Below, in pieces: positions 55,713 through 59,963 of a stretch of 64,000 nt of DNA. Every line of letters begins with the position of its first letter. Position 1 is the stretch's first letter. The position numbers were made by a program, and so were the translations under genes. This DNA is from Kiritimatiellales bacterium (lineage in GTDB: Bacteria; Verrucomicrobiota; Kiritimatiellia; Kiritimatiellales; Pontiellaceae), in assembly GCA_003246265.1 (NCBI GenBank), contig QKAU01000042.1, forward strand, positions 1 through 64,000, read 5' to 3'. The notes under the pieces are model-generated. The model made no database searches, was not told where the DNA came from, and saw only the letters and a program-made list of their open reading frames with translations.

Positions 55713-56618
55713 TCAGCTGAGTTCGAGCATCCGTTCGATCGACCGGCGCGCCTTGTTGGCGATCTCCTCGGGAACGGTGATGCGGTATTGCATGTCTTCC
55801 AGCGACCAGAGCACCTTTTCGAGGTCGATCTTCTTCATGTTCGGGCAGAGGGCCCGGTCGCTGACGGAATAGAACTTCTTGCCCGGATTTTCGTTGCGCA
55901 AACGGTAGAGCAGGCCCATCTCCGTGGCCACGATGAACTCCTTGTGGTCCGATGCCCGGGCAAAGGTGCACATCTGGCCGGTGGAGAGCAGCTGGTCGGC
56001 AATGGCGCGGATGCCGTCGGGACACTCCGGATGGGCCATGACAACCGCGTTGGGATGGTCCTCCTTCTCGCGCAGGATATCGATGTCTCGAATGCGTGAA
56101 TGGGTCGGGCAGTAGCCGTCCCAAATGATCATCCCGCGCCCCAGTTCCTTCTGCACATAGTGGCCGAGATGCGTGTCGGGCACAAAGATGATCTCCCGGT
56201 CGGCCGGCACGGAAGAGACGATTTTCATGGCGTTGGACGAGGTGCAGCAGAGGTCGCACTCCGCCTTGACGGCCGCGGAGCTGTTGACGTAGCAGACGAC
56301 CACCGCGCCGGGATGTTCCGCCTTCTTGGCGCGCAGCTGTTCGGCGGTGATCATGTCGGCCATCGGGCAGCCGGCGAAACGGTCGGGCAACAGAATGGTC
56401 TTTTGGGGGCTGAGGATCGCGGCGGTTTCAGCCATGAAATGGACACCGCAGAAGACGATCACCTCCTCTTCGAGCTGGGCCGCCTTGCGGCTGAGCTCGA
56501 GCGAGTCTCCGGTGAAGTCGGCGATGGCCTGCACCTCGTCGGGCTGGTAGTTGTGGGCGATGATGACCGCCCCGCGCTCCCTCTTCAGTTCCTGGATTTT
56601 TTCCTGGATGGTCTGCAT
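55713..56618 (-). CDS. nadA: Quinolinate synthase A
   Basis: NadA condenses iminoaspartate and DHAP to quinolinate, using a 4Fe-4S cluster. The 301 residues show IIAHNYQPDEVQAIADFTGDSLELS, FCGVHFMAETA, CPMADMI, the cluster Cys in YVNSSAAVKAECDLCCTSSNA, AHPECPDGIRAIAD and SDRALCPNMKKI. GAGGG is five bases before ATG. Leading the nifU-nifS operon is sensible because NadA is an Fe-S enzyme. Confidence 0.95.
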   Translation of the reverse strand: MQTIQEKIQELKRERGAVIIAHNYQPDEVQAIADFTGDSLELSRKAAQLEEEVIVFCGVHFMAETAAILSPQKTILLPDRFAGCPMADMITAEQLRAKKAEHPGAVVVCYVNSSAAVKAECDLCCTSSNAMKIVSSVPADREIIFVPDTHLGHYVQKELGRGMIIWDGYCPTHSRIRDIDILREKEDHPNAVVMAHPECPDGIRAIADQLLSTGQMCTFARASDHKEFIVATEMGLLYRLRNENPGKKFYSVSDRALCPNMKKIDLEKVLWSLEDMQYRITVPEEIANKARRSIERMLELS

Positions 56619-56659
56619 GGGTTTCCCTCGAAAAGGCGCGTATTAAAAACGACCCCCCG

Positions 56660-57286
56660 TCAAAAACAAAACAAAAAGGGTAGTATTTCGCCCCCTTGTG
56701 GCTCGCGGAAATAAAAACGGGGGGCCCTATCCATGAACGCTTCGGTATCCAGGAAGTCGGCATCGACCACGCACGAAAAAAGTATGCGGATGAAAAAGGC
56801 AGGATCGGCTCCTTTCGGAACCGGCGAGGTGGGTAGCGGCTGGTTTTTCAACCATTCAGGAACGAGTTCCAAAATGGCTGCGGACCTTTCCGGATTGCGC
56901 ATGCGCGGTTCGAGGGCCCGGCCCCCCTCTTCGTCGGATTCGTAGTCGGCCAGCCCGGCATGGTGGCCCATGATGAGCCAGGACAGCAACCGGTCAACGC
57001 CCCTCCAACCGCACAACGTGGCCCAATGGCCGCCCGCCTCGGAATGGACAACCCGCCCCGGCTTGGTTTCCAGATGGCACTCGATGCCGTTGGCTTCGCA
57101 GAGCTTTTTCTGGAATTCGTTGGAATACTTGCCGAGGTCGTGCCAGAGCCCGGCGAGGCGCGCCCATTCCTGCCCGCCGAAGGGGACGGCGAATTTGGCG
57201 GCTTTTTCAGACACATTTTGCAGATGCTCTTCGAGCGGCTGCCAGCCGGAGGGCGGGCCGTCGTTGCTGTGGGCATGACGCGTCAT
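56660..57286 (-). CDS. Orphan Cas3''-like HD nuclease domain protein
   Basis: A 208-residue protein matching the HD nuclease domain of Cas3 (Cas3''). H21 in LEEHLQNVSEKA, H49-D50 in LWHDLGKYSNEFQKKL, H81 in VVHSEAGGHWA, H108-H109 in MGHHAGLAD and the distal Asp in SCVVDADFLDTE are all present. In type I CRISPR systems this nuclease degrades target DNA and is fused to or works with the Cas3 helicase. Here no helicase, other cas gene or array is seen. The last ~20 residues (FYFREPQGGE on) look like read-through. It is either a degraded Cas3 or a stand-alone HD enzyme. ATG 57286; the longer open frame crosses the mutS start region. Confidence 0.78.
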   Translation of the reverse strand: MTRHAHSNDGPPSGWQPLEEHLQNVSEKAAKFAVPFGGQEWARLAGLWHDLGKYSNEFQKKLCEANGIECHLETKPGRVVHSEAGGHWATLCGWRGVDRLLSWLIMGHHAGLADYESDEEGGRALEPRMRNPERSAAILELVPEWLKNQPLPTSPVPKGADPAFFIRILFSCVVDADFLDTEAFMDRAPRFYFREPQGGEILPFLFCF

Positions 57287-57461
57287 GGTAAACGAAATTC
57301 TAAGGGTTGCTTTTCCAGACTCAAGTCTTTCCTTTCTTAACCCTTTGTTAATCCGTTCCCGGCTGCCCCTGCCGCGCGGCGGGTGCGGGAAGCGCGCTTT
57401 TCGGGGTTGATTCGACCCCGGGGGCGGATACACTGGCCCCTCTGTTTTTAAGGGGGCGGCT

Positions 57462-59963
57462 ATGGCGGAAAAGGAGACACCGATGATGGCGCAGTACCGG
57501 GCGATCCGGCGCGAGCTGCCGGGGGATACCATCCTCTTCTTCCGCCTGGGCGACTTCTACGAGATGTTCTTCGACGATGCGAAGACGGCGGCCGGGATCC
57601 TCGATATCACGCTCACCAAGCGGCACAACACGCCGATGTGCGGCGTCCCCTACCATTCGGCCTCGGGCTACCTCGAACGGCTGGTGAAGGCGGGCAAGAA
57701 GGTGGCGATCTGCGAGCAGATCGAGGATCCGGCGATGGCCAAGGGGGTCGTGAAGCGCGACGTCACCCGCATCGTTACGCCGGGCACGATCCTCGACGAG
57801 GTGCAGCTCGACGGGAACCAGAACAACTTCCTGGCGGGACTCTTCCGGATCGGCGAACGGTTCGGGCTGGCGATGCTCGACCTCTCGACCGGCGAATTCT
57901 GGATCGAGGAGAGCGACCAGCTTGCGCACATGGGGGCCAACCTTTCGCGCTATGCCCCGGCCGAGTGCGTCGTGGCCGAGGAGCAGCTCGGCGATCCGGC
58001 CTTCGGCGAGCTGGGGCTGGAGGCCACCGGCACCCTGCTTACGGCCTGCGAGGAGTGGACCTTCGAGGCGGCCACGGCCAACGACTTCCTGCTGCGCCAC
58101 TTCGCCATCCACTCCCTGGAGGGCTTCGGCTGCGCCGGCATGCGGGCGGCGCTGGGGGCGGCGGGCGCGGTGCTCTACTACGTCAAGACCGGGCTGCGCC
58201 GCAACCTCGACCACGTGCGCACGCTGAGAGTTAAGAATCCGGCGGACTACATGCTGCTGGATGAAACGACCGCCACCAACCTGGAGCTGGTCGCCCCGAT
58301 CCACTCGAACCGGACGGCGCAGAAGGCGACGCTGCTCCACGTGCTCGACGCGACCTGCACCGCCATGGGCGGCCGGCTGCTGCGCGAATGGCTCCTGCGC
58401 CCCCTCAACAACCTGGCGCAGATCGACGAACGGCTCGACGCCGTGGAACTGATGGTGAAAAACCAATCCTACCTCCGCTCCCTGCGCGACATCCTCGGAG
58501 GCATCAAGGATATCGAGCGCCTGGTCTCCCGCATCGGCTCGACTTCCGGCAACCCGCGCGACGTGCGGGCCATGGGGCTCTCGCTGGAACAGATGCCGAT
58601 GGTCAAGGCGCTGCTCCACGGCAAGGGAACGATGCTTGCAACCCTTGGAGCGCGGGTCGAAGCGCTCCCCGGCCTGGTGGCGCGGATCGATGAATCGCTG
58701 GTCGACGAGCCGCCGCTCACCCTCAAGGACGGCGGCGTCATCCGGCCCGGCCACCATGCCGAACTCGACGAACTGCGCGCGGCGGCCACGCAGGGCCGCA
58801 AGTGGCTGGCCGATTTCCAGGCGGCGGAGATCGAGCGGACCGGCATCAAATCGCTCAAGGTGCGCCACAACAAGGTGTTCGGCTACTACATCGAGATCAG
58901 CAAGGCCAACCTGGACCTGGTGCCCGAATCGTACATGCGCAAACAGACGCTGGTGAACGCCGAACGGTTCATCACGCCGGAACTGAAGGAATACGAAAAC
59001 AGGATCCTCGGCGCGCAGGAACGCTCCGTCGCCCTCGAACAGGAGCTCTTCGCCGAGATCCGCCAGCAGGTGGTCGCCGAGCTCGACGCCATCCAGCGCA
59101 ACGCGGCCGCCATCGCGCAGGTCGATGTGCTCGCGACCTTCGCCGAACGGGCGCTCGCCAACAACTATGCGCGCCCCGCCATGGCCGACGACGGCCGCCT
59201 CGCCATCCGCGACGGCCGCCATCCGGTGGTGGAGCGGATGCCCGACGCCGAGCGCTTCGTGCCGAACGACACGCGGCTGGACCGCGACACGCACCAGCTG
59301 ATCATCATCACCGGTCCCAACATGGCGGGAAAATCGACCTACATCCGCCAGGTGGCGCTGATCGCCATCATGGCGCACATGGGCTGCTTCGTGCCGGCCG
59401 CCGCGGCCGAGATCGGGCTGGTGGACCGCGTCTTCACGCGCGTCGGGGCCAGCGACGACCTGGCCCGGGGTCGCTCGACCTTCATGGTGGAGATGCAGGA
59501 GACGGCCAACATCCTCAACAACGCGACCCCGAAGAGCCTGATCGTGCTCGACGAGATCGGGCGCGGAACCAGCACCTTCGACGGCATCAGCATCGCCTGG
59601 TCGGTGGCCGAATTCCTCTGCAGGAATCCGGACATGCGGGCCAAGACCCTGTTTGCCACCCACTACCACGAACTGACCGACCTGGCGCTCACGCTGCCGA
59701 ATGTGCAGAACTTCAGCGTGCTGGTGAAGGAGAAGGGCCACGCCATCACCTTCCTGCGAAAGATCGTCCCCGGGGCGGCGGACAAGAGCTACGGCATCCA
59801 GGTCGCCCGCCTGGCCGGCCTGCCCGACGAGGTGATCGAGCGCGCATCGGACATCCTCAAGAACCTGGAGGAAGGGGAGTTCGGGGAGAGCGGCCAGCCC
59901 AAGCTGGCCAGAAAGCGCCCGCACAAGCTGAAGGCCAATGTTTCGCAGCTGGACCTGTTCTGA
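57462..59963 (+). CDS. mutS: DNA mismatch repair protein MutS
   Basis: A full-length 833-residue MutS. The mismatch-contact Phe-X-Glu lies at 32-34 (GDFYEMF), the connector and lever follow, and the ATPase has Walker A TGPNMAGKSTYIRQVA, ASDDLARGRSTFMVEM, Walker B LIVLDEIGRGTSTFDG and THYHEL. It binds mismatches and starts methyl- or strand-directed repair with MutL (not in view). GGGGGCGG precedes ATG. The orphan HD gene is divergent across a 175-base spacer. Confidence 0.97.
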   Translation: MAEKETPMMAQYRAIRRELPGDTILFFRLGDFYEMFFDDAKTAAGILDITLTKRHNTPMCGVPYHSASGYLERLVKAGKKVAICEQIEDPAMAKGVVKRDVTRIVTPGTILDEVQLDGNQNNFLAGLFRIGERFGLAMLDLSTGEFWIEESDQLAHMGANLSRYAPAECVVAEEQLGDPAFGELGLEATGTLLTACEEWTFEAATANDFLLRHFAIHSLEGFGCAGMRAALGAAGAVLYYVKTGLRRNLDHVRTLRVKNPADYMLLDETTATNLELVAPIHSNRTAQKATLLHVLDATCTAMGGRLLREWLLRPLNNLAQIDERLDAVELMVKNQSYLRSLRDILGGIKDIERLVSRIGSTSGNPRDVRAMGLSLEQMPMVKALLHGKGTMLATLGARVEALPGLVARIDESLVDEPPLTLKDGGVIRPGHHAELDELRAAATQGRKWLADFQAAEIERTGIKSLKVRHNKVFGYYIEISKANLDLVPESYMRKQTLVNAERFITPELKEYENRILGAQERSVALEQELFAEIRQQVVAELDAIQRNAAAIAQVDVLATFAERALANNYARPAMADDGRLAIRDGRHPVVERMPDAERFVPNDTRLDRDTHQLIIITGPNMAGKSTYIRQVALIAIMAHMGCFVPAAAAEIGLVDRVFTRVGASDDLARGRSTFMVEMQETANILNNATPKSLIVLDEIGRGTSTFDGISIAWSVAEFLCRNPDMRAKTLFATHYHELTDLALTLPNVQNFSVLVKEKGHAITFLRKIVPGAADKSYGIQVARLAGLPDEVIERASDILKNLEEGEFGESGQPKLARKRPHKLKANVSQLDLF

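Follow-up and report, generated by a model that had tools for sequence, protein, structure and literature searches.

A solitary Cas3''-type HD reading frame between nadA and mutS in Pontiellaceae is very probably the remaining front quarter of a type I-C cas3

The window analysed here, a stretch of 64,000 nucleotides from a Kiritimatiellales bacterium of the family Pontiellaceae (assembly GCA_003246265.1, contig QKAU01000042.1), contains between nadA and mutS an open reading frame (ORF) for a Cas3''-type HD nuclease, and the question raised by this locus is whether the ORF is the debris of a type I CRISPR-Cas system or a stand-alone HD nuclease retained for another task. Both possibilities had been put forward in a sequence-only reading of the window, which had placed the gene correctly between its two neighbours (Table 1). 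The analysis points with high confidence to the leftover front quarter of a type I-C cas3 after loss of the CRISPR system, that is, to debris and not to a new stand-alone enzyme.

Table 1. Coordinates of the features at the nadA-mutS junction (window positions) and of the related cas3 stubs and IVP-like genes (positions in their own loci)
Feature	Location	Strand	Remarks
nadA, quinolinate synthase	55713..56618	(-)	resident gene at one side of the junction
Conserved T-rich element upstream of nadA	56638..56678	(-)	CTTTTTGTTTTGTTTTT ... GTTTTTAATACGC
cas3-like HD ORF	57286->56660	(-)	208 codons; stop 56662-56660
Non-homologous read-through tail	56660..56728	(-)	codons 187-208 and stop; from alignment, GC and AlphaFold
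5' part of type I-C cas3	56729..57286	(-)	codons 1-186, complete HD domain
Divergent intergenic region	57287..57461	(+)	conserved mutS upstream motif (TTGATTC...GGATACACTG)
mutS	57462..59963	(+)	resident gene at the other side; divergent orientation to the cas3 fragment, also seen in G028 and G003
cas3 5' stub	L122:6631-9290		G005
cas3 5' stub	L115:8535-8760		G003
cas3 5' stub	L116		G015
cas3 5' stub	L119:5912-6127		G087
cas3 5' stub	L121:6935-7045		G094
IVP-like gene	L113:2403-2909		
IVP-like gene	L119:11888-12397		
IVP-like gene	L121:12921-13427		
IVP-like gene	L122:2460-2966		

Judged by sequence comparison, the ORF is real and its Cas3'' identity is far above chance. The cas3_HD model TIGR01596 matches it with 93.4 bits (E 1.7e-26) over model positions 1–177 of 178, its top class in a PADLOC search is Cas3c of type I-C (127 bits), and the nearest solved structures, by sequence (E ~1e-22) as well as by fold, are the type I-C Cas3 entries 8g9u and 8zns of the PDB. 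The N-terminal HD with metal-binding histidines and aspartate, as found in type I-C Cas3, is present. In Cas3 of Neisseria lactamica, residues H8, H25, H52, D53, H118, H119 and S192 coordinate the metal or are needed for activity (PMC11417383); the alignments place their equivalents in the HD part of the ORF at H6, H21, H49, D50, H108, H109 and S171, respectively, with all seven kept, which bears out the initial statement that every HD metal-binding residue is present. The frame is open through all 186 cas3 codons of the fragment (0 stops, 0 frameshifts) and a promoter-like match lies directly 5' of the start. In the AlphaFold model of the ORF product (mean pLDDT 84) the core is well folded as far as the helix that ends at residue 186 and is followed by a disordered tail, with pLDDT values of about 42–51 for the last 19 residues.

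A closer look at the end of the ORF reveals where the cas3 gene was cut. In an alignment with 21 helicase-bearing Cas3 sequences the homology reaches ...VVDADFLDTEAFMD (residue 186) and stops abruptly; the 21 sequences continue past that point to the PTGGGKT helicase motif whereas the ORF does not, and the SF2 helicase domains (Walker A) expected in a full type I-C Cas3 are missing from it. In the 22 codons of the tail GC is 0.52/0.48/0.44 at the three codon positions, without the pattern shown by the HD part. The element upstream of nadA is laid out as CTTTTTGTTTTGTTTTT, about 11 variable bases and GTTTTATATACGC, followed by nadA, and this CTTTTTGTTTTGTTTTT...TATATACGC element is common to most relatives of the same genus, all of them without an HD gene there. 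The last five codons of the ORF (TTT TTG TTT TGT TTT) and most of its TGA stop fall inside the element, about 50 bases from the end of cas3 homology. Since the element is conserved in relatives that have no HD gene, the end of the ORF is nadA's own DNA, read accidentally in the cas3 frame. The earlier impression that the C-terminal end looks like read-through was therefore correct and can now be placed, the homology ending at residue 186. The locus thus has what is expected of a cas3 remnant, with the rest of the gene and of the system lost and a junction into unrelated DNA.

An inverted repeat is seen at the junction (window 56650-56728), formed by GGCCCCCCGTTTTT / CGGGGGGTC, also written GGCCCCCCG...CGGGGGGTC. 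Whether its nadA-side arm could be what is left of an I-C repeat was considered, using for comparison that of Pontiella sulfatireligans (GTCGCCCCCCGCACGGGGGGCGCGGATTGAAAC), and this was rejected: the arm is native to nadA, since GACGGGGGG is also present at this place in G013, a genome in which the HD search gave no match.

The search for other parts of the system in this genome (3.0 Mb, 81 contigs, 96% complete) covered the HD domain, the helicase, cas1, cas2, cas7 and the repeat genome-wide, and cas4, cas5 and cas8 in the window. The Cas3 HD search gave a single match, the ORF itself. No cas1, cas2 or cas7 was found in the whole genome, the search for the Cas3 helicase returned only helicases below the cutoff, and even with three mismatches tolerated the I-C repeat pattern of relatives was not matched. 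A tblastn search of the window with seven I-C cas proteins as queries found nothing but the HD, with no helicase DNA, and no CRISPR array was detected. The claim that no helicase, Cascade gene or array is near holds for the window, and the genome-wide search that had been proposed alongside it extends the absence to the items tested (helicase above cutoff, cas1, cas2, cas7 and I-C repeat). The possibility that the genome encodes a further, complete Cas3 at another place was rejected, there being one HD match and no helicase above the cutoff.

Comparison of the same site in relatives revealed an intact counterpart. In G028, a member of the same family, a complete I-C operon lies directly divergent from mutS, in the order cas3-cas5c-cas8c-cas7-IVP-like (23S rRNA IVP-like)-cas4-cas1c-cas2-array, the contig starting within the CRISPR array; its cas3 appears to be a mosaic and is only about 41% identical overall to the window HD. 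In G003, of the same genus, a stub of 74 codons with 66% identity to the window HD comes after mutS and precedes another, different cas3 of full length. A full cas locus at this site in a sister strain had been named beforehand as the finding that would mark the ORF as debris; G028 provides it at the family level, and G003 represents a half-way state. Position and orientation make it likely that the cas3-beside-mutS locus is of shared ancestry, which is not proved because the three genomes that have it do not form one clade on the MutS tree. The conserved nadA-HD-mutS order that the sequence-only reading had suggested looking for was seen in none of the 40 relatives examined, and a conserved operon of that order was consequently rejected.

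In eight other members of the genus (G001, G005, G006, G009, G017, G019, G022 and G024) nadA and mutS have the same divergent arrangement, with 0.4–23 kb between them. This variable interval often holds pfp, ppk and ppx, names that were read from the sequences and not obtained via a family search, with ppk and an orthologous pfp between the two genes in G001, G009, G019 and G024. Neither ppk nor an orthologous pfp was found in the genome of the window; as a positive control, the same query finds ppk in 13 of the 40 relatives.

From the truncation, the position of the junction, the loss of the tested cas genes and the full or partly replaced operon in relatives, we infer that a single and recent deletion was the cause. 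The starting state would have been a type I-C CRISPR-Cas locus beside mutS. The deletion would have run from about codon 186 of cas3 to the DNA just upstream of nadA, taking with it the helicase portion of cas3, the remaining cas genes and the array; it would thereby have fused the cas3 frame to the nadA upstream region, in which the ORF ends at the first stop in frame. The polyphosphate genes (pfp-ppk-ppx) may have gone in the same deletion, a joint loss that is not established because ppk is also missing from several other genus members without HD at this site.

The substitutions in the fragment show, as far as sequences can tell, neither relaxation nor special retention, and decay is not visible. 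It departs from 2 of 71 columns that are 90% conserved in its subgroup, about as frequently as functional Cas3, and its end branch is 0.17 against a median of 0.18. The dN/dS comparison proposed for the HD domain was obtained (NG86 median 0.11 where a pair includes the HD, 0.10 where it does not), but is not usable and was given no weight, synonymous sites being saturated and most pairs failing. No different picture would be expected if the truncation were much younger than the branch, so that a normal branch proves neither decay nor retention, and the truncation may be too recent for relaxed selection to show. The earlier argument that the intact catalytic set favours retention is accordingly weak: an ordinary branch and departure rate are also expected from a recent truncation, which explains the intact active site equally well.

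A retained stand-alone HD nuclease with another task (repair beside mutS, or defence) would be in keeping with the intact catalytic set, the folded HD core of the AlphaFold model, the conserved columns and branch in which relaxed constraint is not seen, and the promoter-like match directly 5' of the start. This reading is nevertheless very unlikely, since neither the nadA-HD-mutS order nor a stand-alone HD of this lineage occurs in any relative, the end and stop of the ORF are nadA upstream DNA, and the CRISPR operon that G028 and G003 have at this site accounts for the adjacency to mutS. Among the 80 nearest GTDB loci the helicase is in the same ORF in 77, the other three being one that runs off its contig, one that is frameshifted and one truncated copy (G080/L052); no stand-alone HD family of this lineage is found among them, and with 77 of 80 fused the ORF therefore does not belong to a lineage of stand-alone HD proteins. 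It is equally unlikely that the truncated product continues to be made, acts as a small free HD nuclease and was kept as useful, for example in DNA turnover, after the CRISPR loss. A retained function is possible, with no positive support. An HD without helicase or Cascade cannot load onto a target, so that the product, if expressed, would be at most a weak metal-dependent nuclease, and the fragment is probably without function. As regards the two possibilities posed at the outset, debris gains from the operon of G028 and the half-way state of G003, and retention loses by the order missing in relatives, the fused nearest loci and an ORF that ends in the nadA element.

Arrival of the cas3 piece alone by horizontal transfer, a full CRISPR-Cas never having stood at the site in this lineage, is highly improbable. 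The genomes with cas3 beside mutS are indeed scattered on the MutS tree, and the GC3 of the fragment (0.74) is lower than that of nadA (0.85) and mutS (0.91); yet cas3 occupies this place, with this orientation, in two relatives, being part of a complete I-C operon in one, and aberrant GC is frequent in defence genes that are no fragments. An assembly artefact, in which a cas3 contig end was misjoined to nadA and the remaining system was lost in gaps, can be considered extremely improbable. The genome is in 81 contigs and CRISPR arrays often break assemblies, as in G028, but the join is expected from eight relatives in which nadA and mutS are likewise close together and divergent, the contig (C54) is 81 kb long, and cas1, cas2, cas7 or a further part of cas3 were not found anywhere in the assembly. 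The identification of the ORF as a leftover of cas3 removes a candidate 'orphan nuclease', which domain searches would label Cas3'', and it offers a cheap test for such remnants, namely whether the end of an ORF falls in the conserved promoter region of its neighbour.

Short 5' stubs of cas3 (about 35–75 codons), belonging to one I-C lineage and placed directly before another full-length cas3, were observed in several Pontiellaceae (Table 1). In G005 a stub of about 60 codons is followed by a divergent cas3-5-8-7 block. Identity to the counterparts in G021, G028 and G024 is about 25–36% for this block but 78–90% for the IVP-like gene, cas4 and cas1 located downstream. The foreign block beside resident IVP-like gene, cas4 and cas1 suggests that the effector module was probably exchanged in place, the old cas3 start being left as a scar. 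An apparent mosaic in codons 1–60 is seen in the cas3 of L113 (G028), L015 (G001) and L016 (G032): residues 1–53, which run to just past the HD motif LWHDLGK, resemble the resident Pontiella lineage at about 63–91%, and residues 54–150, only about 20–30% like it, were assigned to another lineage. This breakpoint lies near the ends of several stubs. In four I-C operons cas7 is followed by a gene for a four-helix-bundle protein of the 23S rRNA intervening-sequence family (PF05635, TIGR02436), located between cas7 and cas4 where cas4 was identified (G028, G005 and G087). The recurrent stubs from I-C effector swaps are more interesting than the orphan HD ORF, and the repeated loss or swapping of I-C effector modules with the cas3 start remaining makes the Pontiellaceae (Kiritimatiellota) useful for studies of CRISPR turnover.

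Searches of the literature for orphan or solitary cas3 brought up no description of this case, and the ORF can be set beside several known systems. Its HD is 69–70% identical to that of the type I-C Cas3 (Cas3c) of P. sulfatireligans (L032), and it shares HD sequence, fold and the seven active-site residues with the I-C Cas3 of N. lactamica (PDB 8zns, 8g9u). It differs from type I-C Cas3 in having neither the helicase (RecA1/RecA2) nor the C-terminal domains, and no Cascade genes were found in the genome. The likeness to stand-alone Cas3'', the split HD subunit of some type I systems, lies in an HD nuclease as a separate ORF. Split subunits are encoded in cas operons next to a separate Cas3' helicase, whereas here there is neither cas operon nor Cas3' helicase, the sequence is that of a fused I-C Cas3, and no separate HD ORF conserved in relatives with a Cas3' in trans is seen. 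Degenerate CRISPR-Cas loci likewise consist of an isolated 5' cas piece without array or adaptation genes and are also alike in having the junction inside the control region of a neighbour; the window fragment differs from them in its still open frame and complete catalytic set. The remnant in G080 (L052/L114) is another 5' cas3 piece, of 147 codons and with no helicase motif nearby, which differs from the present one in its in-frame fusion with the end of a glycosyltransferase gene.
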